DNA from: a virus
Length of the DNA: 64,000 nucleotides
Virus record (IMG/VR): IMGVR_UViG_3300015360_000023
Location: 62,001 to 126,000 of that record
Reading direction: 5' to 3' (one strand)
The notes below the pieces were generated by a model that worked only from the letters and a program-made list of their open reading frames with translations, ran no database searches and was not told the DNA's origin. This document shows, piece after piece, positions 47,747 to 58,573 of this stretch; the first letter of the stretch is position 1; every line of letters starts with the position of its first letter. The position numbers and the translations under genes were made by a program.

Positions 47747-48457
47747 ATGAGTAAGATATTAAGTATTGTTATTCCAGTTTTCAATAAGTGGAACTTCACC
47801 AAGTCTTGTTTGACTGATTTAGTTCAATTACCTGAAGATCATGAAATCATTGTTATCGACAATGCTAGTGCAGATGATACTCCAACCAAGATTCAAGGGC
47901 TAATTGACGAGCTATTCCTCAAATACCCATTGAGCTGCGAAATCCGTTACGTGAGAAACGAAGAGAATACTTTTCATTCTAAAGCCTGTAATCAGGGCTT
48001 TCGTTTAGCTCAGGGCGATAACGTTCTATTTCTCAATAATGACATTCGAGTTAAAGCCAGCCATACAACGTGGACCAAGCCAATCATCGATGGTTGCGCT
48101 AATGGAATCGTAGGTCCAACGATGGGTCAGCTTGACAGCAATCTAAACTTCGTCAAAGAAGCCAGCCAGCAATTGACCGGCAACTCTTATTTGGGCGGTT
48201 GGTGTATTGCGGCCAGCAAGACCACTTGGAAAGAGCTTGACGTAGATGGTACGGGCCAGATTTGGAACGAAGAGTTTCCATTTTACTTCAATGATACAGA
48301 CTTGAGCTTTCGCGCTCGTCTTAATAGGGTTCCATTAACTGTAGTTAACGTTCCTGACGTAACTCATTTTGGTAAAGTTTCCGCAGCACAAATTAACATT
48401 CACAAATTGTATACTGAGGGAAGATCAATCTTCCTTAAAAACTGGAGTAAGCGATAA
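47747..48457 (+). CDS. Glycosyltransferase, GT2-like (GT-A fold)
   Basis: 236 residues, with AAGGTCATT before the ATG. Family 2 features are clear: I-V-I-P-V-F-N-K-W near residue 6, I-V-I-D-N-A-S-A-D-D-T near 35, the metal-binding F-L-N-N-D-I, and F-Y-F-N-D-T-D-L-S-F-R-A-R in the acceptor half. A single catalytic domain without membrane segments, so a cytosolic enzyme transferring one sugar. The stop overlaps the start of the DNA glycosylase. Confidence 0.85.
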   Translation: MSKILSIVIPVFNKWNFTKSCLTDLVQLPEDHEIIVIDNASADDTPTKIQGLIDELFLKYPLSCEIRYVRNEENTFHSKACNQGFRLAQGDNVLFLNNDIRVKASHTTWTKPIIDGCANGIVGPTMGQLDSNLNFVKEASQQLTGNSYLGGWCIAASKTTWKELDVDGTGQIWNEEFPFYFNDTDLSFRARLNRVPLTVVNVPDVTHFGKVSAAQINIHKLYTEGRSIFLKNWSKR

Positions 48458-49281
48458 TGCCTGAAGGCGTAGAAGTAAGAATCAGTGCAGAGTTAATTAA
48501 ACCACTAGTAATAGGTAAGCAAGTTTCAATTTCATTACCACATGGAGCTGGAAGGTACAAATCATCTCCCCCTGAAGGATACGTTGCTTTTGAAAAATCA
48601 GTAATTACTGAATATGTAAAAGTAGTTGATGTTCAAACTAAAGGTAAATTCATGTATTGGTCATTTGATAATGGCTGGTATATGTTTTGTACTTTTGGAA
48701 TGACAGGGCAGTGGTCACCTATTATGGCCAAGCACCCTTGCTTCGTTTTTACTTTTGAAGATAACACTCAGGCCTTCTTTAATGATCCAAGACATTTTGG
48801 CACAATCAAATTTATTAACAATCGAGATGAGTTACTGCTTAAGCTAAATGAATTAGGCTGGGATCCTTTGAATCAAGAGCTAACTCCCGTATGGCAGAAT
48901 TTCGTTATCAATACGCTGGCGCGCACGACCAAACCAATTGGTCAGGTACTGATGGACCAAGGCGTTTTTGCTGGCGTAGGTAACTACATTCGTGCGGAAG
49001 CGTTATATCTAGCAAAGATGTCTCCTTGGTGTAATAGTAATAAGTTAAAGAAAGACGAAATTGCTATTTTATGTCAGGCGCTTGTTGATGTAATGAAAGA
49101 TTCGTATAATCATCAAGGAGCTACTATCCTTACCTATAAAGATGCCTATGGGGCAGAAGGTAAGTACTCAAGCTGTTTTAAGGTTTATGGCCAAAAGACA
49201 GACCCTTTGGGTAATCCAATTATCAAAGAAGAGACGCCCGATAAGCGCACTATTCATTGGTGCCCCGCAGTACAAGTATAA
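48457..49281 (+). CDS. Fpg/Nei-family DNA glycosylase
   Basis: 274 residues. The start M-P-E-G-V-E-V supplies the catalytic N-terminal Pro and Glu of the family; the beta-strand Lys (T-K-G-K-F-M), F-G-M-T-G-Q-W, N-D-P-R-H-F-G and the helix-two-turn-helix V-G-N-Y-I-R-A-E-A-L-Y are all in place. The C-terminal zinc finger is altered: C-F-K-V and C-P-A-V replace the two C-x-x-C pairs, leaving one Cys in each, while the Arg that intercalates (D-K-R-T-I) is kept. Excises damaged or unusual bases; in a phage this could be repair or part of base modification chemistry. Confidence 0.88.
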   Translation: MPEGVEVRISAELIKPLVIGKQVSISLPHGAGRYKSSPPEGYVAFEKSVITEYVKVVDVQTKGKFMYWSFDNGWYMFCTFGMTGQWSPIMAKHPCFVFTFEDNTQAFFNDPRHFGTIKFINNRDELLLKLNELGWDPLNQELTPVWQNFVINTLARTTKPIGQVLMDQGVFAGVGNYIRAEALYLAKMSPWCNSNKLKKDEIAILCQALVDVMKDSYNHQGATILTYKDAYGAEGKYSSCFKVYGQKTDPLGNPIIKEETPDKRTIHWCPAVQV

Positions 49282-49289
49282 AGGTCATT

Positions 49290-50264
49290 ATGTCATTATC
49301 TACAAAAATTCTAATTTGGTTAGGCGGTATTCTTCTGGTTGGTGCTTTAGGTTTCATTATCTATACACAGATTCAAATATCTAAACGACAAGAAGCTATT
49401 GAGCAAAATGTAGTGGCTCAAAAACTATTGGTGGATGGCATTGTTCGAAGTCAGTCTACCTGGGCCACAAGAGATGATGTAGAGAAGTTTATCAAAGACA
49501 ATGGACTAAACCTCAAAGCAATCCAAGAAGACCTAGATAAGCTTCACGCTGAGGTCTCCTCAATCAATGTAGCGATTGCTAGTAGCAAAGGGCAAATCGG
49601 CACGCACATTCCAACGACTCCTGGTCCAGTAATTAATCCTGGGCCTATTGATCCAAAGAATCCAGATCCATATGGATACATGAAGCGTCAACAAACGTTT
49701 GTCCTAAATGAAGATTTTGGTTCCATTAAGATTCCAATTGGGTCAGTCGGATTTAGTGCGTGGCAGAAGGAACCTTGGAATTATGATATCAAGGCTAGAG
49801 ATTATAAACTAGCTACTGTAGTAGGAACTGACGAAAATCAAAGACAATATTTCTATAATAAGTTTACTGTTCAAACAGATGGTAAAGAATATGTAGTTCC
49901 GATCAAAACTGCAACTACAGAACAGGTATTCCCTGAGGCTAAGTTTAGCTGGTGGAACCCAAGACTATTCCTTGGCGTAGATGGTGCAGTTGGGCTCGCC
50001 CCTGTCAAAGGGGAGTTCACACCAAATCTAGGTGTTCAAATTATGTCTTATGGTCGATATAAGACTCAGCCAGATCTTTCTGTTTTGCAAGTGGGTGCAG
50101 GCTATGGTACTATTAGTAAAACGCCGCAACTTGTTATAACGCCCATATCATATAATATTGGTAAACATTTACCACTCATGAATAACACATATATTGGACC
50201 CTCTCTCGGCGTAGGTACTGACGGTAACGTCTTTATTGGCGCCGGCTTGAGAGTTGGATTATAA
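49290..50264 (+). CDS. Membrane-anchored coiled-coil and beta-rich protein
   Basis: 324 residues from the ATG at 49290, preceded by AAGGTCATT as in the gene at 47747; an in-frame TTG at 49257 lies inside the glycosylase gene. One membrane segment (about 6-26) with no cleavage site, a helical stretch (30-98), a Pro-rich linker (107-130), then 190 residues of alternating strands ending G-A-G-L-R-V-G-L, reminiscent of an outer-membrane barrel or periplasmic beta domain. An i-spanin would share only the first half. It may span the envelope; function unknown. Confidence 0.5.
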   Translation: MSLSTKILIWLGGILLVGALGFIIYTQIQISKRQEAIEQNVVAQKLLVDGIVRSQSTWATRDDVEKFIKDNGLNLKAIQEDLDKLHAEVSSINVAIASSKGQIGTHIPTTPGPVINPGPIDPKNPDPYGYMKRQQTFVLNEDFGSIKIPIGSVGFSAWQKEPWNYDIKARDYKLATVVGTDENQRQYFYNKFTVQTDGKEYVVPIKTATTEQVFPEAKFSWWNPRLFLGVDGAVGLAPVKGEFTPNLGVQIMSYGRYKTQPDLSVLQVGAGYGTISKTPQLVITPISYNIGKHLPLMNNTYIGPSLGVGTDGNVFIGAGLRVGL

Positions 50265-50274
50265 AGGAAGAATA

Positions 50275-51102
50275 ATGCTATATCTTTTGACACTTACCTG
50301 GAATGCGTGCGACAAGTTAACCAAACTCAAGGAATCAATTCTTCCTGCCCTTAATGGTATTGATTACACTTGGCTCATCAAGGATAATGCATCCAAAGAT
50401 GATACTGTTGCCGTTGCTTCAAGTTGGGGCGGTAACATAAAGGTTATCCCTTATAAGAACAACATGCAAAACTTTTCAGCGGGTATGAACTACCTCTTTA
50501 ATGAGGCGCAACCTAAAGATAATGATCGTGTTCTTTTATTGAACAATGATGTTATTTTTAATGATAAAAAGTCAATTCATAATATGATGGGTATTATGGA
50601 TAAAGATAAAAAGGTAGGCGCAGTAGGCTGTAGGTTGCTATATACTGGCACTGATAAACTCCAACACGCAGGTGTCGTTTTTGATCCGAGAACTAGGACT
50701 CCAACCCATTTTAGGGTCGGCCAAAAGACTGATGCAATGGCAGAAAGAAACAGAGAGTTTCAGGTTGTAACTGGAGCTGTTCTTTTAACTGATGGTGAGA
50801 GTTTCAAGAATTCTTTTACCAAGAACAAATCGGGCGCTAATGGCATGGACGAAAATTATCACTGGGCCTTTGATGATGTTGATTTGTGTTTAGCCATTAA
50901 GTATAATCAGAACAAGAGAATTATATATTGTGGTGAGACTAATATCTTCCATGAAGAAAGTGCCTCTCTAAAGAAGAATCCAGCTAACAAGCTATTTATG
51001 AATCATAATATGTCCTATCTAATGGACAAGTGGGCTGGACGTTATCAAATTGATCTGGTCGATTACACTAAAGATCCAAAACTTAATTTGTACCAAGGAT
51101 AA
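50275..51102 (+). CDS. Glycosyltransferase, GT2-like
   Basis: 275 residues from the ATG at 50275 (AAGGAAG upstream), preferred over the in-frame TTG at 50254. L-L-T-L-T-W-N-A near the start, K-D-N-A-S-K-D-D-T, L-L-N-N-D-V, and F-D-D-V-D-L-C-L-A-I show a family 2 single-domain enzyme of the rhamnosyltransferase-like type. Distinct from the enzyme at 47747 though of the same fold. It ends two bases before a nucleotide-sugar dehydratase gene, so the two may act on one pathway. Confidence 0.82.
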   Translation: MLYLLTLTWNACDKLTKLKESILPALNGIDYTWLIKDNASKDDTVAVASSWGGNIKVIPYKNNMQNFSAGMNYLFNEAQPKDNDRVLLLNNDVIFNDKKSIHNMMGIMDKDKKVGAVGCRLLYTGTDKLQHAGVVFDPRTRTPTHFRVGQKTDAMAERNREFQVVTGAVLLTDGESFKNSFTKNKSGANGMDENYHWAFDDVDLCLAIKYNQNKRIIYCGETNIFHEESASLKKNPANKLFMNHNMSYLMDKWAGRYQIDLVDYTKDPKLNLYQG

Positions 51103-51104
51103 AC

Positions 51105-52055
51105 GTGAAAAAAGTTCTTATTACTGGCACATGTGGTTTCATTTTCAGCAACTTCATTCGTCGAGCTATCTACGAAAGACAAGCATATTCCTTTGTGAGT
51201 ATAGATAGGGTTGGTGGTAATGCCAATGCCCTTTATTCTCATAAGAATCATGTCTTCCATCTGGCCGACTTAAGGGACAACCATATCATTGATAAGATCT
51301 TTCAATTTGAAAGACCGGATATCGTTATCCATGCGGCGGCTGAAAGCTTCGTAGATGCTTCTCTGACCGATCCTAACGCCTTTGTGACCTCTAATGTCCT
51401 AGGCACCCAGGTAGTCATCAATGCCTGTTTAAAACACGGTGTGGAGCGACTAATTTATGTTTCCACAGATGAGGTGTATGGCCAGCTTACTAGCGAGTCA
51501 GATAAGGCCTGGACTGAGGAATCACCCCTTGACCCCAGAAACCCTTATTCGGCTTCTAAAGCGGCTGGAGAGTTGATGGTCAAAGCAGCTCATGCTAGCC
51601 ATGGTTTAATTTATAACATTACTCGTAGCTCCAACAACTATGGCCCCCGCCAGACTGCCGAAAAGCTCATTCCGAAGGCAATAAAATGCATTATGAATGA
51701 CCAGAAGATTCCCCTATATGGTCAGGGTCTTCAGATTCGAGACTGGACGCATGTTTTCGATAATTGCGCAGCCTTGCTAGCCATTCTAAATGATGGTAAA
51801 CCTAATGAGACCTATAATATTTCAGCTAATCAAGAGCTACCTAACATTGAAGTAATTCAAAAGATTTGTAATGCTATGGGTAAAGGTCACAATCTTATTT
51901 CCTTCATTGAAGACCCTCGTAAGGGTCATGATTTTAGATATTCAGTTGATTCATCTAAAATCAAAGAACTGGGTTGGAAACCGACCTTCAAATTCAGAGA
52001 AGGTATCACTGAAACTGTTGAATGGTATAAGATAAATCAATGGCTTTTGAAGTGA
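51105..52055 (+). CDS. NAD-dependent sugar epimerase/dehydratase, RmlB-like
   Basis: 316 residues, GTG start two bases after the previous stop. Short-chain dehydrogenase features: T-G-T-C-G-F-I-F at the nucleotide loop, H-A-A-A-E-S-F-V-D, S-T-D-E-V-Y-G and Y-S-A-S-K-A-A-G-E. The T-D-E plus Y-x3-K combination matches dTDP-glucose 4,6-dehydratases. The third Gly of the usual G-x-x-G-x-x-G loop is Phe, which may weaken or reshape NAD binding. It would supply a deoxy-sugar nucleotide to the neighbouring transferases. Confidence 0.85.
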   Translation: MKKVLITGTCGFIFSNFIRRAIYERQAYSFVSIDRVGGNANALYSHKNHVFHLADLRDNHIIDKIFQFERPDIVIHAAAESFVDASLTDPNAFVTSNVLGTQVVINACLKHGVERLIYVSTDEVYGQLTSESDKAWTEESPLDPRNPYSASKAAGELMVKAAHASHGLIYNITRSSNNYGPRQTAEKLIPKAIKCIMNDQKIPLYGQGLQIRDWTHVFDNCAALLAILNDGKPNETYNISANQELPNIEVIQKICNAMGKGHNLISFIEDPRKGHDFRYSVDSSKIKELGWKPTFKFREGITETVEWYKINQWLLK

Positions 52056-52065: not shown

Positions 52066-52078
52066 CTAAGGAGACATA

Positions 52079-53440
52079 ATGTCAGCAACATCCAAAACAG
52101 AAGAAACGACCGCCGAGACCGTGGTAGATGACGTTTCAAATACAGAAGTTAAAAAAGAAGACGGATTAGATCCGAATGTCTTGGCCGCATTGAAGGCTAA
52201 GAGCCAAGCTAAACAGCAGGAGAGCAAGATGGCGGCTAAGATTGTAGCGAAGAAAGAGAGAAGCCTTGCCTTAGGTATCCTGGGTTCAGGTCAAGCAGGT
52301 TCTAGATTAGCTGAAGCTTTTTACAAGCACGGTTATGACGTAGCAGTAGTTAATACAGCTATGCAGGACTTGAAGTTTATTGATGTCCCAGATTCTAACA
52401 AGCTACTCTTAGAGTATGGTCTTGGTGGAGCTGCTAAAGAAATTGAAATTGGTAAGGCAGCAGCCGAAGCTCATCGTGGTGAAATTAGCCAATTGATTGC
52501 CGACAAACTGGCTCACTCTCAAGTGAATGTCCTTTGCCTTAGTTTAGGTGGTGGTTCAGGCGCTGGTTCTTGTGAGACCCTTGTAGATATTCTATCCAGT
52601 ACCGGCAAACCCTTAGTCGTTATGACCGTTCTTCCGATGGCCACTGAAGATGCTCAGACTAAATCCAATGCTCTTGAAACTTTATCCAAACTTTCTAAGT
52701 TAGCTCAAACTAAGAAGATCAACAATCTTATCGTTGTTGATAATGCTAAGATAGAATCTATCTATTCTGAAGTGGGTCAAATGGAATTCTATAAAACGGC
52801 TAACAAAGCCATTGTAGAGCCAATTGATATTTTCAATACACTTTCTTCTATGCCATCTGAAACCAAGCCATTGGATCCAATGGAATTTTCTAAGCTGTTT
52901 TTAGACGGTGATGGCCTTACTGTTTACGGTGAATTCTCTGTCGCAGATTACGCTGGCGAAATGAGTATTGCTGAAGCAGTTGTAAACAACCTATCTCACA
53001 ACCTATTGGCTGAAGGTTTTGATCTTAAGCAATCCAAGTATGTTGGTTACATTGTAACTGCAAGCAAAGAAGTCTGGTCTAAGATTAAGGCAGTTAGCAT
53101 TGATTACGCCAACCATATGGTCAATGACCTTTGTGGTAATCCAGTAGGTGTCTTCAAGGGTATGTATGTCGTTGAATCTAACGAAGACGTTGTCAAGGTT
53201 TATTCAATGTTTTCTGGTCTTGGTTTGCCGGCTTCTCGTGTTGAGCAACTTAAGAATGATACTCAAGAACTAAAGTCTAAAGTCAAGGGCAAAGATGATG
53301 CTCGTAATCTAACTCTACAACTTGACACCGGCACCAATGAAACGGTTTCTGCCGCCCAAAAGGTCAAGGACAAGATTGCCGCTAAATCATCTTCCTTCGG
53401 TAAGTTCGTGACGGGCGTTGTCGATAGACGTAAGCCATAA
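52079..53440 (+). CDS. Tubulin/FtsZ-like GTPase
   Basis: 453 residues with a charged, probably disordered N-terminal arm of about 60. GTPase loops follow in tubulin order: T1 G-S-G-Q-A-G-S (about 69-75), T3 G-L-G-G-A-A-K-E (about 114), and the signature T4 G-G-G-S-G-A-G-S (about 157-164, FtsZ has GGGTGTG). Strands around V-L-C-L-S-L and V-V-M-T-V-L-P fit the Rossmann core. A canonical T7 catalytic motif is not evident, so polymerisation-coupled hydrolysis is uncertain. C-terminus is basic. Phage relatives (PhuZ, TubZ) form filaments that centre or segregate phage DNA; the same role is inferred here. Confidence 0.8.
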   Translation: MSATSKTEETTAETVVDDVSNTEVKKEDGLDPNVLAALKAKSQAKQQESKMAAKIVAKKERSLALGILGSGQAGSRLAEAFYKHGYDVAVVNTAMQDLKFIDVPDSNKLLLEYGLGGAAKEIEIGKAAAEAHRGEISQLIADKLAHSQVNVLCLSLGGGSGAGSCETLVDILSSTGKPLVVMTVLPMATEDAQTKSNALETLSKLSKLAQTKKINNLIVVDNAKIESIYSEVGQMEFYKTANKAIVEPIDIFNTLSSMPSETKPLDPMEFSKLFLDGDGLTVYGEFSVADYAGEMSIAEAVVNNLSHNLLAEGFDLKQSKYVGYIVTASKEVWSKIKAVSIDYANHMVNDLCGNPVGVFKGMYVVESNEDVVKVYSMFSGLGLPASRVEQLKNDTQELKSKVKGKDDARNLTLQLDTGTNETVSAAQKVKDKIAAKSSSFGKFVTGVVDRRKP

Positions 53441-53463: not shown

Positions 53464-53520
53464 TTGTCGAGAAAAAGGTACTAGATATATATGATCTAGT
53501 ACCTTTAACCTTTTCGACAA
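53464..53520 (+). promoter_or_regulatory. Large hairpin abutting the helicase start codon
   Basis: Perfect 13-base inner stem, 53474-53486 with 53494-53506, closing a 7-base loop; an outer 7-base stem TTGTCGA (53464-53470) pairs with TCGACAA (53514-53520). The outer arm ends one base before the helicase ATG at 53522. No T-run follows, so it is unlike a simple intrinsic terminator; masking of the start region, an mRNA processing site or a protein-binding site are more likely. Confidence 0.8.
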
Positions 53521-53521
53521 C

Positions 53522-55036
53522 ATGACCAAAATTCTTATCAAGGGTAACACCTCTCAGATCACGGAAGAGTCCGATGCTAATCATGTTTTAGCTCTGGATA
53601 AGCATCTCTCTTTTTACGTACAGGGCGCCGAACATACGGCTGCCTTTAGGGGATACATCAATCGAGATGGAGACTTTGTCAAGTGGGATGGGATGAAAAA
53701 ACTTCTGACCCCCACTCTTCAGTTCCCTACCGGATTAGTAGATAGGGTCAAAGACTTCTACATTGAACATGGTAAAACATTTGATATTGTCGATAAGCGC
53801 CCAGCTAAATCGGTGGGCACTCCACGAGATATTCTTTCTAATTTAAAGAAAATGAATAAGGATCCCTATCCTTATCAAATGGAAATTCTTGATGTCATTG
53901 ACAAAAATGATCGAGGAATTATAAAGGTAGCTACAGGTGGAGGAAAAAGTTTGATCGCGGCATTGATTGCTGCCAAATTAGGTAAGAAGACCATCATCTA
54001 TGTTATTGGTAAGGATCTACTTTACCAGTTCCACGATTTCTTCTCGTTGGTTTTTGATGAGAAGATCGGAATCATTGGTGATGGTAAATGTGAAATTCAT
54101 GACATCAACATTGCCAGTATCTGGACCATTGGTCAAGCTATTGGTATGGACAAAAAAACCATTTTACTTGAAGGTGATGATGACGAAGAAGCGGTAAGTA
54201 AAGACAAGTACGTTAATATCCTTAAGATGATTAAGGATACAAAAACTCATATGATTGATGAGTGCCATATGTCAGCTTGCGAAACCATTCAACAGGTTTT
54301 CAAAACAGCTAAGGCCGAGCATCTGTATGGTTTGAGCGGATCTCCTTGGAGAGACGACGGAGCCGATTTACTCATCGAAGCTGTTCTTGGCAAGTACATT
54401 GTCAACATCTCTGCTTCTTATTTGATTGAGCGTGACTTCTTGGCTCAAGCACTCATAAGATTTAGAGTAGTCCCTCCATATCCAACTCAGATAGAGAAGG
54501 TCTATCAATCAATTTACAAAAAATATGTTGTAGAGAATGATGCCCGAAATGGTTTAGTTTTAGATGGTGCTAAAACTCTGGTTGCAAAGGGATACCAAAC
54601 GCTGGTGCTCTTTAACAGTTTGAAACATGGTAAGATTCTTTACGAGCTATTCAAGCAGCACATGAAGTGTGCCATCTTAGACGGATCTAATAGCAAGGAA
54701 GAGCGAGAGCAAGTCAAAAAAGATTTAATGGAGCACAAAATTGATTGTGTTTTGGCTTCCAAAATCTTTGATATAGGCGTTGACATCCCCAGTTTAGCTG
54801 GTCTGGTAATCGCATGCGGTGGAAAATCAACTGTCAAGGCATTACAAAGAGTTGGAAGAGTCATTCGTAAGTATCCGGGCAAGAAGTTTGCCGTTGTTAT
54901 TGACTTCATTGATCAAGCTCCATTTCTTGATAACCACTCTAAAACTAGATACAAGATTTATAAGTCAGAAGAAGGGTTCGACGTATCATGGCCACTCCAA
55001 AAAAAGAAAAAATCGAAGAAACCGGAGGAGAACTAA
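53522..55036 (+). CDS. UvsW-like superfamily 2 DNA helicase
   Basis: 504 residues. Motif I A-T-G-G-G-K-S (137-143), motif II D-E-C-H (246-249), motif III G-S-P-W-R near 273, and motif VI Q-R-V-G-R-V-I-R (442-449) define an SF2 helicase of the UvsW/RadD type. The first 110 residues resemble the N-terminal DNA-binding part of UvsW. T4 UvsW unwinds R-loops, branches and origin structures and switches replication mode. No ribosome site is visible; the start lies just after the large hairpin. The C-terminus is Lys-rich and overlaps the next gene by 49 bases. Confidence 0.88.
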   Translation: MTKILIKGNTSQITEESDANHVLALDKHLSFYVQGAEHTAAFRGYINRDGDFVKWDGMKKLLTPTLQFPTGLVDRVKDFYIEHGKTFDIVDKRPAKSVGTPRDILSNLKKMNKDPYPYQMEILDVIDKNDRGIIKVATGGGKSLIAALIAAKLGKKTIIYVIGKDLLYQFHDFFSLVFDEKIGIIGDGKCEIHDINIASIWTIGQAIGMDKKTILLEGDDDEEAVSKDKYVNILKMIKDTKTHMIDECHMSACETIQQVFKTAKAEHLYGLSGSPWRDDGADLLIEAVLGKYIVNISASYLIERDFLAQALIRFRVVPPYPTQIEKVYQSIYKKYVVENDARNGLVLDGAKTLVAKGYQTLVLFNSLKHGKILYELFKQHMKCAILDGSNSKEEREQVKKDLMEHKIDCVLASKIFDIGVDIPSLAGLVIACGGKSTVKALQRVGRVIRKYPGKKFAVVIDFIDQAPFLDNHSKTRYKIYKSEEGFDVSWPLQKKKKSKKPEEN

Positions 55037-55599
55037 CCTCTGTTCCTAATGATAAGTACAGGAAGTTCTTCGATAAGTTTGCAGAGATTGAAACACTAAA
55101 GGTGGACGACTGGAAAGCCGCGCACCTTCTTGGCTATTTCTGCAAGAAATATAAAGATACTTACAATGAGGATTATCCCTGGAAGTTCAATAACGAGAAT
55201 CCTGCTAAATGCTTTGAGGTCTGGCAACTTAATACATTGGTTGCCCGTATCTCCAAGAACCCTCAGATTCTCAAGGACTACATCGACTGGGCTTATATTA
55301 ATTTGGTTCCTAAGGCTAAACGCAGGCTCACCTCAATTTCCTTTATGACTAAGGAAGACATCGTTCTCAATTACAAGATGAACGTGCTCTTAGCCGGTAA
55401 GAAGAATCTAAGCGTGGATCGTTCTAGTCCTCTTCCAGATAAGTTCAAATCACCATTTCAAGAGATTGGTGTTACTGTTTCCAATTACGGTGACTTAGCT
55501 TTCCTATCTCAAATGGAGAAGACTGCCGAGATGATTTCCGCTTTTGAGAAGCTTAATGAACTAGGATTCGATAATGACATCCTGGGGAGAATTGTATGA
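54988..55599 (+). CDS. Unknown replication-cassette protein A
   Basis: 203 residues, ATG 49 bases inside the helicase gene in another frame, so translation is coupled. Helical, with Y-R-K-F-F-D-K-F and aromatic-rich W-K-F-N-N-E-N-P, followed by a disordered basic region. No family recognised. Because it is locked into the helicase/helicase-loader cassette by overlaps on both sides, a replication or recombination accessory role is likely. Confidence 0.6.
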   Translation: MATPKKEKIEETGGELTSVPNDKYRKFFDKFAEIETLKVDDWKAAHLLGYFCKKYKDTYNEDYPWKFNNENPAKCFEVWQLNTLVARISKNPQILKDYIDWAYINLVPKAKRRLTSISFMTKEDIVLNYKMNVLLAGKKNLSVDRSSPLPDKFKSPFQEIGVTVSNYGDLAFLSQMEKTAEMISAFEKLNELGFDNDILGRIV

Positions 55600-56000: not shown

Positions 56001-56503
56001 CTCCGCAAACCGGACAACATGTAAAGGTTATTCTTCGTAATGGCGCTATTGCCGAAGGCATCGTTGAAGAGTGGTTTGCTAATACAGTTCAATTACGATC
56101 TTTAGATAATGAAAGTATTCTAATTATCAGTCATCCGGCTGAAGATATAATGCTAATCAAAGTAATGTTAGATAAACCGGAAGAAGAGGCTGAGCCTGAG
56201 TCCGGCCCTACCATTGAAGAAGTAAATGATTTTGAGGCACAGTTCCAGGAAGCTGCCGACTCAACTGATCCACATGATGTGGATGATATCAAAAGTTTAG
56301 CACAATTGCGTATTGAATTGAATAAACAAGAGCGCCGCATCATTGCAGAAAAACTAAAGGATCATCGACCGGGTCGTGCTTATCAACCTAGTACAACTCC
56401 ATACCACTATCCTTCTGTGGTAACAGGCAAACCAACTCCCTATACACCATCAAGGATCCCGAATGGACACACACGACATAGCAAGAAGCCGAGCACTAAA
56501 TAA
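55997..56503 (+). CDS. Sm/Hfq-like fold protein
   Basis: 168 residues from the ATG at 55997, which overlaps the previous stop; an in-frame TTG at 55976 is less likely. Residues 5-60 read G-Q-H-V-K-V-I-L-R-N-G, then G-I-V-E-E-W, V-Q-L-R-S-L-D and I-L-I-I-S-H: five short strands in the order of an Sm barrel. Acidic helices and a basic Pro/Thr-rich tail follow. Hfq and LSm rings bind RNA; whether this one does cannot be read from sequence. The tail is rewritten by the 41-base overlap with the helicase loader. Confidence 0.45.
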   Translation: MTPQTGQHVKVILRNGAIAEGIVEEWFANTVQLRSLDNESILIISHPAEDIMLIKVMLDKPEEEAEPESGPTIEEVNDFEAQFQEAADSTDPHDVDDIKSLAQLRIELNKQERRIIAEKLKDHRPGRAYQPSTTPYHYPSVVTGKPTPYTPSRIPNGHTRHSKKPSTK

Positions 56504-57170
56504 CATCCCTCCTCGTAAAGTTCAAGATGCTCTTGCGGCCGTTGAAGCCAGTCAAGATGAATTGAAAGTGAAGCATGTTAAACAGATTGCTATTAATCGA
56601 TATGCTGAAAGCAATATCCCTATTGATTATTGGACTCTTAAAATGGATAGGGATTTCAAGGGAGATCCAAGATTGCTTGCCAAGTTCAATGAATATACGG
56701 AAGATCTAAAAGCTTCATATGTAAGCGGTAGTTCGCTATGCCTTGCTGGTGGTCATGGGCTCGGAAAAACAATGACAATAACTTGCGTTCTTAAAAAAGC
56801 AAGTCAAAAAGGATTTAATTGTCTGTACACTACGCTCAGTGATATAGTCAACGTCCTTACCATTGGCGGTGGGGAGGACAAGTTCCTGGCACGCCGAGAA
56901 CTTGCTTTGGTTGATTTCTTGGCGATTGATGAATTTGATCCTCGATTTATGCCATCTGAGAATGCGGCCGATTTATATGCTCGCAGCTTGGAAAGTGTTT
57001 TTCGAAATCGCAGCCAGAATAAGCTTCCTACATTGATGGCTTCTAATAGTCCCAATCCGGTTGAAGCTTTCAAGGGTCCTTTGAAGGACAGCATTGATAG
57101 CTTGATGAAGGGATACCTAAAAGTCTTCCCGGTCGCACCAGGCAAGGATTTTAGAAAGGAAAAAGCATGA
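56463..57170 (+). CDS. AAA+ helicase loader (DnaC-like)
   Basis: 235 residues. A helical N-terminus with I-P-I-D-Y-W-T-L precedes the ATPase: Walker A G-G-H-G-L-G-K-T (96-103), Walker B L-A-I-D-E-F-D-P (153-160), and a sensor-like M-A-S-N-S near residue 190. Size, single AAA+ domain and position directly before the DnaB-type helicase identify a loader that opens the helicase ring onto DNA. Its start overlaps the preceding gene by 41 bases and its stop overlaps the helicase start (ATGA). Confidence 0.85.
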   Translation: MDTHDIARSRALNNIPPRKVQDALAAVEASQDELKVKHVKQIAINRYAESNIPIDYWTLKMDRDFKGDPRLLAKFNEYTEDLKASYVSGSSLCLAGGHGLGKTMTITCVLKKASQKGFNCLYTTLSDIVNVLTIGGGEDKFLARRELALVDFLAIDEFDPRFMPSENAADLYARSLESVFRNRSQNKLPTLMASNSPNPVEAFKGPLKDSIDSLMKGYLKVFPVAPGKDFRKEKA

Positions 57171-58573
57171 GCAACGATTTAGATTTAGTTATTCTTAAAA
57201 CGCTAGTAACTAATAAGAAGCATGCTTTAGACTTTGTCAATGAATGTGACATTAAACTATTTGGGCCAGATGTCTTTCATTTTGCTAACCTAGCCATTGG
57301 ATACATTCGTACCTATAAAGATCTTCCAACTCAAAGGGTTATGGTTGAGAGACTTACTAAGGGTAAGAATGAAAAACAAATTGAGCACGTTAATAAAGTA
57401 TGGGCTCAACTAGATGCTCTATCATATAATGATCGCGAATATAAGCACGATCTAGAGTCCATAAAGAAACGCTTTGCTGAGAAACAGCTTTCTGGAATGA
57501 AGGACCAGCTAGGTAAACTAGAGCCTGGTGCCATGGATATCGAAAAGACTATCAGTGATATGAATAAGACTATTCAGTCTATTAAGTCATTGCATCAAGT
57601 TAAAGCTTACGAACGTAAAACTTTAAAACAAGCTATACCTATCTTTAGAGAAGAGTATAATGCTAAGATGGAGGATCCTGATTTTGATAAAGGCATCAAG
57701 ACTGGTTACTCTTATCTAGACAACGCTACAGATGGGTTGAGACCGGGCGAGCTTATTCTCATCGGTGGTGAGTCGGGTGCTGGTAAATCCATGTTGTTAA
57801 TGAACATGGCTATTCAGATTTGGTTGCAAGAGAATACCATTGATATGGTGGACAACTTCAAGCCAGGTAACAGCGTCCTTTACTTCTCTTTGGAAATGCC
57901 ATTCAAACCATGTTTGAATCGTGTTCTATCTAGACTGTCTGGCAATCCATCCAAGAAAATTCGTAATGCTACATTGAATACCGATGAGGCTCTCAAGCTC
58001 AAGAAGGCGCTCAAGTTCATTAATAATTATAATTGTGAATTTGAGATTGTTGATATTCCTCGTGGAGCTACCATGGAAAGCATGGAGCTTATCTTTGAGG
58101 AAGCTAAAGCTTATTACAATCCAAAGATTATCGTAATCGACTATCTTGGTCTAATGGACTACGATGGCGCCGATATGGAAGACTGGCTCAAGCTCGGCAA
58201 GATTGCTGAAAAGATTCACGAGTTTGCTCGTGTCCATGGTTTGATTGTTCTAAGTGCCATCCAGTTAAACCGTGGTAAGGGCGGCAAGGATACCGAGGAA
58301 AAGATTGGTTTACATCGTATTGGTCGTTCGGCTCTAATCATGCAAAACGCTAACATTGGTGTTCAGATTGAAACTCGTCCCAATGAGAAGTCTTTCCCGG
58401 ATATGAATTACCATCTTATTAAGAATCGTGACGGTGAATTGGGCAAAGGAAAGCTTATCAAAAACCTGGCGGCAGGCACCCTTATTGACGAGAAATCTGA
58501 AGAAGATCCAACTACTTTTGAGATGAGAGATCCAGACGATATTTCTGATCGTCCTGGCCTCGATCTTGACTAA
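57167..58573 (+). CDS. Replicative DNA helicase, DnaB-like
   Basis: 468 residues. N-terminal helical domain (1-150), then a RecA-type core: G-E-S-G-A-G-K-S Walker A (201-208), I-I-V-I-D-Y-L-G-L-M Walker B (321-330), S-A-I-Q-L-N-R near 363, and the final K-N-R-D-G-E-L-G strand-loop with the arginine finger region. Hexameric 5'-3' helicase at the phage fork, loaded by the preceding gene. Primase and polymerase are not in the window. The gene ends the overlapping cassette; a TATAATA element follows. Confidence 0.92.
   Translation: MSNDLDLVILKTLVTNKKHALDFVNECDIKLFGPDVFHFANLAIGYIRTYKDLPTQRVMVERLTKGKNEKQIEHVNKVWAQLDALSYNDREYKHDLESIKKRFAEKQLSGMKDQLGKLEPGAMDIEKTISDMNKTIQSIKSLHQVKAYERKTLKQAIPIFREEYNAKMEDPDFDKGIKTGYSYLDNATDGLRPGELILIGGESGAGKSMLLMNMAIQIWLQENTIDMVDNFKPGNSVLYFSLEMPFKPCLNRVLSRLSGNPSKKIRNATLNTDEALKLKKALKFINNYNCEFEIVDIPRGATMESMELIFEEAKAYYNPKIIVIDYLGLMDYDGADMEDWLKLGKIAEKIHEFARVHGLIVLSAIQLNRGKGGKDTEEKIGLHRIGRSALIMQNANIGVQIETRPNEKSFPDMNYHLIKNRDGELGKGKLIKNLAAGTLIDEKSEEDPTTFEMRDPDDISDRPGLDLD

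Follow-up and report, generated by a model that had tools for sequence, protein, structure and literature searches.

What kind of tubulin does a virus carry beside its replication genes, and to what use could it be put? The question is raised by an ORF of 453 amino acids in a window of 64,000 nucleotides, by which we mean the whole stretch of DNA that was analysed, from a virus record of 202.6 kb (IMGVR_UViG_3300015360_000023) in which contractile-tail sheath, terminase, portal, sigma factor and ribonucleotide reductase genes are found. From the letters and ORFs of the window, the original prediction had read this ORF as a phage tubulin/FtsZ-like GTPase with an N-terminal arm and atypical loops, which could be a divergent branch beside the known PhuZ and TubZ, proteins that move or centre DNA.

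Domains, active site and fold of the phage tubulin

The ORF starts with ATG and is preceded by a ribosome-binding site (AAGGAG, approximately 52068-52073), and its product is a genuine protein of the tubulin/FtsZ superfamily of GTPases, as first proposed. The Pfam Tubulin GTPase domain PF00091 is matched above its curated cut-off (2.1e-14, residues 67-229) and is followed by PF22453, the TubZ-like C-terminal domain (1.2e-7, residues 253-392; 32.3 bits against a curated cut-off of 26). At E values up to 10 in Pfam, the protein matches neither the FtsZ C-terminal domain nor the PhuZ C-terminal domain PF22334, which PhuZ of phiKZ does have. The closest solved relative by sequence is B. cereus TubZ (4ei7, 1.5e-12), ahead of FtsZ. 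An AlphaFold (AF2) model, for which 27 relatives were used, has a well-predicted core (blocks mostly 70-95) and low confidence in residues 1-32, 42-57 and 403-453, and its top match in Foldseek is Bacillus TubZ (E 2.6e-22; TM 0.67/0.78 with 4ei7_B). Structure prediction could have pointed to a non-tubulin Rossmann enzyme; because Foldseek instead ranks Bacillus TubZ first and CetZ and FtsZ next, that reading fails.

When the protein is aligned with TubZ, CetZ, FtsZ and PhuZ, loops T1, T3 and T4 stand in tubulin-superfamily order, as had been noticed, and N242 of T6 does likewise (Table 1). The T4 signature had been called atypical for its Ser and Ala in place of the Thr of FtsZ. These substitutions are real, but the description as atypical is overstated, since each occurs singly elsewhere in the superfamily: Ser in CetZ2 (GGGSGSG) and in one Lysinibacillus TubZ (GGGSGTG), and Ala in one PhuZ (GGTGAG). 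The relatives L065 and L073 have the variant GGGSGSGS. The catalytic Asp of T7, which the first reading had failed to find, is present as D266, together with E269. In the loop S-S-M-P-S-E-T-K-P-L-D266-P-M-E269-F, the stretch D266-P-M-E269 stands opposite D-A-S-E in B. cereus TubZ (T-H-F-D-A-S-E-F) and D-F-A-D in E. coli FtsZ (N-V-D-F-A-D). Neither acid varies among 27 close relatives or among 16 diverse ones, and the two form a T7 of the TubZ type (D-x-x-E).

Table 1. Features of the tubulin locus (feature; window coordinates; strand; basis)
Nucleotide-sugar epimerase/dehydratase, conserved upstream neighbour	51105..52055	+	phrog_540 4.7e-85; synteny
TubZ-branch phage tubulin, 453 aa	52079..53440	+	PF00091, PF22453, AF2 model and Foldseek, >100 relatives
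N-terminal arm, residues 1-62; length varies between relatives	52079..52264	+	alignments, AF2 model
T1 nucleotide-binding loop GILGSGQAGS, G66-S75	52274..52303	+	alignment
T3 loop GLGGAAKEIEIG, residues 114-125	52418..52453	+	alignment
T4 signature GGGSGAGS, residues 157-164	52547..52570	+	invariant in 27 close relatives
T7 loop, residues 253-269; D266 at 52874-52876, E269 at 52883-52885	52835..52885	+	alignment
TubZ-like C-terminal domain, approximately residues 276-384; terminal motif FSGLGLPxxR common to TubZ	52904..53230	+	PF22453
Basic C-terminal tail, residues 403-453; candidate partner-binding tail	53285..53437	+	alignments
Perfect 10-bp inverted repeat ggtactagat/atctagtacc, downstream of tubulin	53477..53503	+	read from sequence
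SF2 helicase, UvsW-like, conserved downstream neighbour	53522..55036	+	phrog_16 3e-69; PF04851, PF00271, PF21241
Conserved all-helical 203-aa protein; not TubR-like	54988..55599	+	synteny, predicted fold
DnaC-like helicase loader	56463..57170	+	phrog_50 4.7e-10
DnaB-like replicative helicase, occupancy anchor	57167..58573	+	PF03796 2.6e-30

In two relatives, an intein (Intein_splicing and LAGLIDADG domains) interrupts T1 of the tubulin at one and the same point, the junction that corresponds to G74 and S75 (L031:8366-11134 and L057:8489-11290). In a second viral TubZ-like group, an apparent intein lies just before the T7 Asp (L146:3404-6064 and L151:3443-6061), with a weak Hint_2 match (0.035). 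Inteins commonly occupy active-site motifs, and their position at T1, and apparently at T7, therefore supports working GTPase sites. Judged from their residues, the active-site motifs of the family are intact, and this conservation suggests that the protein hydrolyses GTP and polymerises. The known role of the T7 acids is catalysis across the subunit interface; given that these acids are invariant and that the fold match covers both domains, a nucleotide-binding protein of tubulin fold that does not polymerise is a very doubtful reading.

The charged arm of about 60 residues before the core is real. It is charge-balanced (11 K/R, 11 D/E) and falls into two halves: residues 1-31 are variable, with disorder to about residue 32, and a conserved helix runs from 32 to 62. 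At the other end of the protein, the tail (11 K/R, 6 D/E) is conserved to its tip, FGKxxxxxxDRRK, and among diverse relatives its conservation is nearly equal to that of the C-terminal domain (0.49 versus 0.56). The tail of TubZ binds TubR and TubY and modulates TubY (PMC5322520); by analogy, the tail of the phage tubulin could recruit a partner.

Placement among known tubulins

In profile-profile comparison, the family matches TubZ at 2.7e-42 over 383 columns, PhuZ at 2.7e-10 over 148 and E. coli FtsZ at 3.4e-9 over 185, and the second viral TubZ-like group matches the family profile at 1.8e-58 over 337 columns. A full-length tree without PhuZ recovers the family as monophyletic (100/99), and in it the family, TubZ and the second viral group form three groups in no clear order. 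Trees of the GTPase domain are not decisive, because the PhuZ branch is very long (approximately 4 changes per site) and its position shifts from tree to tree. We therefore place the family in the TubZ branch by domain architecture, profile and fold, and not by the tree. Of the two kinds of phage tubulin named in the original prediction, TubZ stands, whereas a PhuZ-like protein is not supported, its match lying in the GTPase domain only.

Could the protein nevertheless be a PhuZ of a nucleus-forming phage? It matches phrog_4733, the PhuZ PHROG, at 9.3e-8 over residues 130-251, and a tree in which the family and PhuZ were constrained together was not rejected (p-AU 0.64). However, PF22334 is absent, the match to the PhuZ profile is confined to the GTPase domain, and chimallin and the phiKZ-type RNA polymerase beta subunit were each found in none of 22 records of 181-481 kb, with the phiKZ positive control detected in both searches; these two absences are provisional because the records are mostly fragments. 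A PhuZ from a nucleus-forming phage is thus highly improbable, and this reading is already largely refuted.

Occurrence and gene neighbourhood in jumbo phages

As the query was widened, matches in IMG/VR rose from 36 to 74 loci and then to 118 stretches, and the family is present on more than 100 contigs of up to 481 kb. Among isolated phages, no protein match at E values up to 0.01 and no DNA match was found, and the family was found in none of the GTDB genomes searched. In UniProt, A0A6J5RW92 of an uncultured Caudovirales phage is 77% identical over 452 aligned columns and belongs to the same family; its automatic name is 'FtsZ Cell division GTPase', but the profiles obtained here do not support FtsZ. 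With DnaB as the anchor, a tubulin gene lies approximately 5 kb upstream in 53 of 58 loci. Three of the five loci without it end at a contig edge, which leaves a testable set of 55, of which 53 have the gene. The other two, L182 and L183, have no tubulin within 10 kb or on the available contigs, and the presence of the gene is therefore not strictly universal. In 44 of 52 loci, conservation is higher for the tubulin than for DnaB (mean 67.9% versus 60.0%), and each of the 22 large records (181-481 kb) has exactly one. The tubulin is thus a near-universal and strongly conserved gene in a large clade of metagenome-only jumbo phages, and can serve as a marker of the clade, which is uncultivated.

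Nineteen of the 22 large records share the terminase family phrog_675. In a comparison aimed at the host, the nearest terminases, in small Bacillus and other phages, were only approximately 25% identical. One serine recombinase and no tyrosine integrase were found among the 22, an absence that is provisional in records that are mostly fragments, and the tubulin-bearing phages are presumably virulent. Two regions of the source record itself may be mentioned. At G000:C1:173158-188280 (L107, L108), there is a run of 28 ORFs of 98-236 aa, for the most part arranged back to back along a single strand; every one of them has a CxxC motif near the N-terminus, as in an expanded zinc-ribbon-like family. 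At the end of the contig (G000:C1, about 190000-202609; L108:5000-17609), the G+C content jumps from approximately 40% to 55% in a GC-rich repeat; this end is possibly an assembly chimera, and the record may therefore not be one genome.

The gene order is kept among relatives: epimerase, tubulin, UvsW-like helicase, 203-aa helical protein, small protein, DnaC and DnaB, with insertions of homing endonucleases, lysozyme and small ORFs. The idea of a divergent branch next to the replication cassette is thus borne out, as the UvsW-like helicase, the DnaC-like loader and DnaB lie beside the tubulin in fixed order. Where small ORFs are present between the epimerase and the tubulin, they differ among relatives. 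The inverted repeat downstream of the tubulin, which a simple repeat scan did not flag, is possibly a terminator or a regulatory hairpin. Further upstream, the window encodes a protein like formamidopyrimidine-DNA glycosylases of the Fpg/MutM family (48457-49281) and a conserved pair (49257-51102), of which the first member has a hydrophobic stretch at its N-terminus (49257-50264) and the second is a family 2 glycosyltransferase (50254-51102). In two relatives, the epimerase has intein-like inserts at different places (L053:7954-9939 and L054:7875-9971), where Pfam Intein_splicing is matched below its curated cut-off.

Possible roles and comparison with known systems

Among characterised proteins, those closest to the phage tubulin are the TubZ proteins of partition systems, with a match that extends through the C-terminal domain. 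This raises a rival reading: the protein could power a type III (TubZRC-like) partition system that segregates the phage genome while the phage persists as a plasmid prophage or in pseudolysogeny, and whose adaptor and centromere have diverged or lie at a distance. Precedent exists in TubZ of phage c-st, which is regarded as the partition protein of a plasmid prophage (PMC7950403), and the conserved basic tail recalls the TubZ tails that bind TubR and TubY (PMC5322520). However, all seven plasmid tubZ genes examined, from a reference set that left out relatives on virulence plasmids and toxin phages, have an ORF of 100-121 aa directly upstream, in the place of tubR, whereas no TubR-like ORF adjoins the phage tubulin anywhere in the family in a search that covered the adjoining genes; the upstream gene is the epimerase. 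The conserved neighbour at 54988-55599 was considered as a hidden TubR and rejected, as its predicted fold is all-helical and has no PDB match below E 0.001. Repeat searches returned only coding low-complexity repeats and the GC-rich contig end, with no clear centromere-like (tubC) array near the tubulin, although degenerate repeats could escape them. Without an adjacent TubR or a clear centromere array, an ordinary type III partition cassette is disfavoured and a distant adaptor is possible; considering also that no tyrosine integrase was found in the large records, we regard partition as unlikely.

Many phages inhibit host FtsZ, and a protein of the same superfamily might act on host FtsZ as a decoy or poison, so that infected cells stop dividing. 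A simple inhibitor would need less than is conserved here, namely the full length, all active-site loops and both domains. In addition, the protein is closer to TubZ than to FtsZ, it has no match to the FtsZ C-terminal domain, and its constant position next to replication genes suggests another role. An FtsZ decoy is accordingly very improbable.

Because no known nucleus genes were detected in the large records of the clade, the tubulin probably forms filaments by which phage DNA or capsids are moved or placed in another way, and on balance we lean towards a lytic-stage filament of the TubZ branch that places DNA or capsids in jumbo phages without a chimallin nucleus. The GTPase activity, polymerisation, cargo and lytic role that we infer could fit together as follows. 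Each monomer would bind GTP with loops T1-T6 and join the next one head to tail, so that D266 and E269 of one subunit complete the active site of its neighbour; powered by GTP hydrolysis, the filament would treadmill or show dynamic instability. It may be tethered to its cargo by the conserved basic tail, possibly together with the N-terminal helix, and this cargo would most likely be the replicating genome or assembling capsids during lytic growth. The tubulin would then do the work of PhuZ in phages that build no chimallin shell.

The well-studied lytic phage tubulins belong to nucleus-forming phages, and even among the chimallin phages only 66% have PhuZ (PMC10299810). In the clade described here, a near-constant tubulin occurs without detectable nucleus genes. 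We tentatively propose, as a plausible rather than a favoured view, that the family is a further phage tubulin lineage, distinct from PhuZ and from plasmid and c-st TubZ, and that it forms a cytoskeleton core to infection in widespread jumbo phages without a chimallin nucleus, so that tubulin-based organisation inside the cell would not be tied to the phage nucleus. No description of TubZ-branch tubulins in such phages was found in the open-access literature searched; an earlier report is possible. If the tubulin polymerises, the question arises why giant phages need a cytoskeleton without a nucleus to centre, and plasmid TubZ would be linked to phage tubulins.

With TubZ of Bacillus and related plasmids (type III partition; 4ei7, 2xka), the family shares the GTPase and TubZ-like C-terminal domains, the D-x-x-E of T7, the GL-x-LP motif at the end of the C-terminal domain and a tail after the core. 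The two differ in that the phage proteins are only approximately 17-23% identical to plasmid TubZ, have an N-terminal arm and the T4 GGGSGAGS, and are encoded in jumbo phages beside replication genes rather than next to a TubR-like ORF. The second viral TubZ-like group (L140, L142-L147, L151-L153) is up to 34% identical to the family and resembles it in T1 (GQGG), in T7 (TFDR-D) and in the full-length profile match; it differs in its gene neighbourhoods and, in L146 and L151, in the apparent T7 inteins. Within the L140-L153 group, an ORF of 106-133 aa lies directly upstream in L145, L147, L148 and L150, and these are candidate phage TubZ-TubR pairs. Archaeal CetZ has a similar T1 (GQAG) and T4 (GGGSGSG) and a matching fold (4b45_A, TMt 0.83), but its sequence match is weaker than that of TubZ, and CetZ is a cellular archaeal protein. 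TubZ of Clostridium phage c-st (3v3t, 4xcq) is likewise a TubZ-branch tubulin borne by a large phage; its sequence matches only in the GTPase domain (residues 71-227), and the phage itself is a plasmid prophage that has a partition system. PhuZ of the phiKZ-like phages differs in its C-terminal domain (PF22334), in its length of approximately 320 aa and in its company, as in phiKZ it is found with chimallin and a multisubunit RNA polymerase, both undetected in the large records of this clade; it is, like the tubulin described here, a jumbo-phage tubulin, and the two likely serve a similar kind of task.
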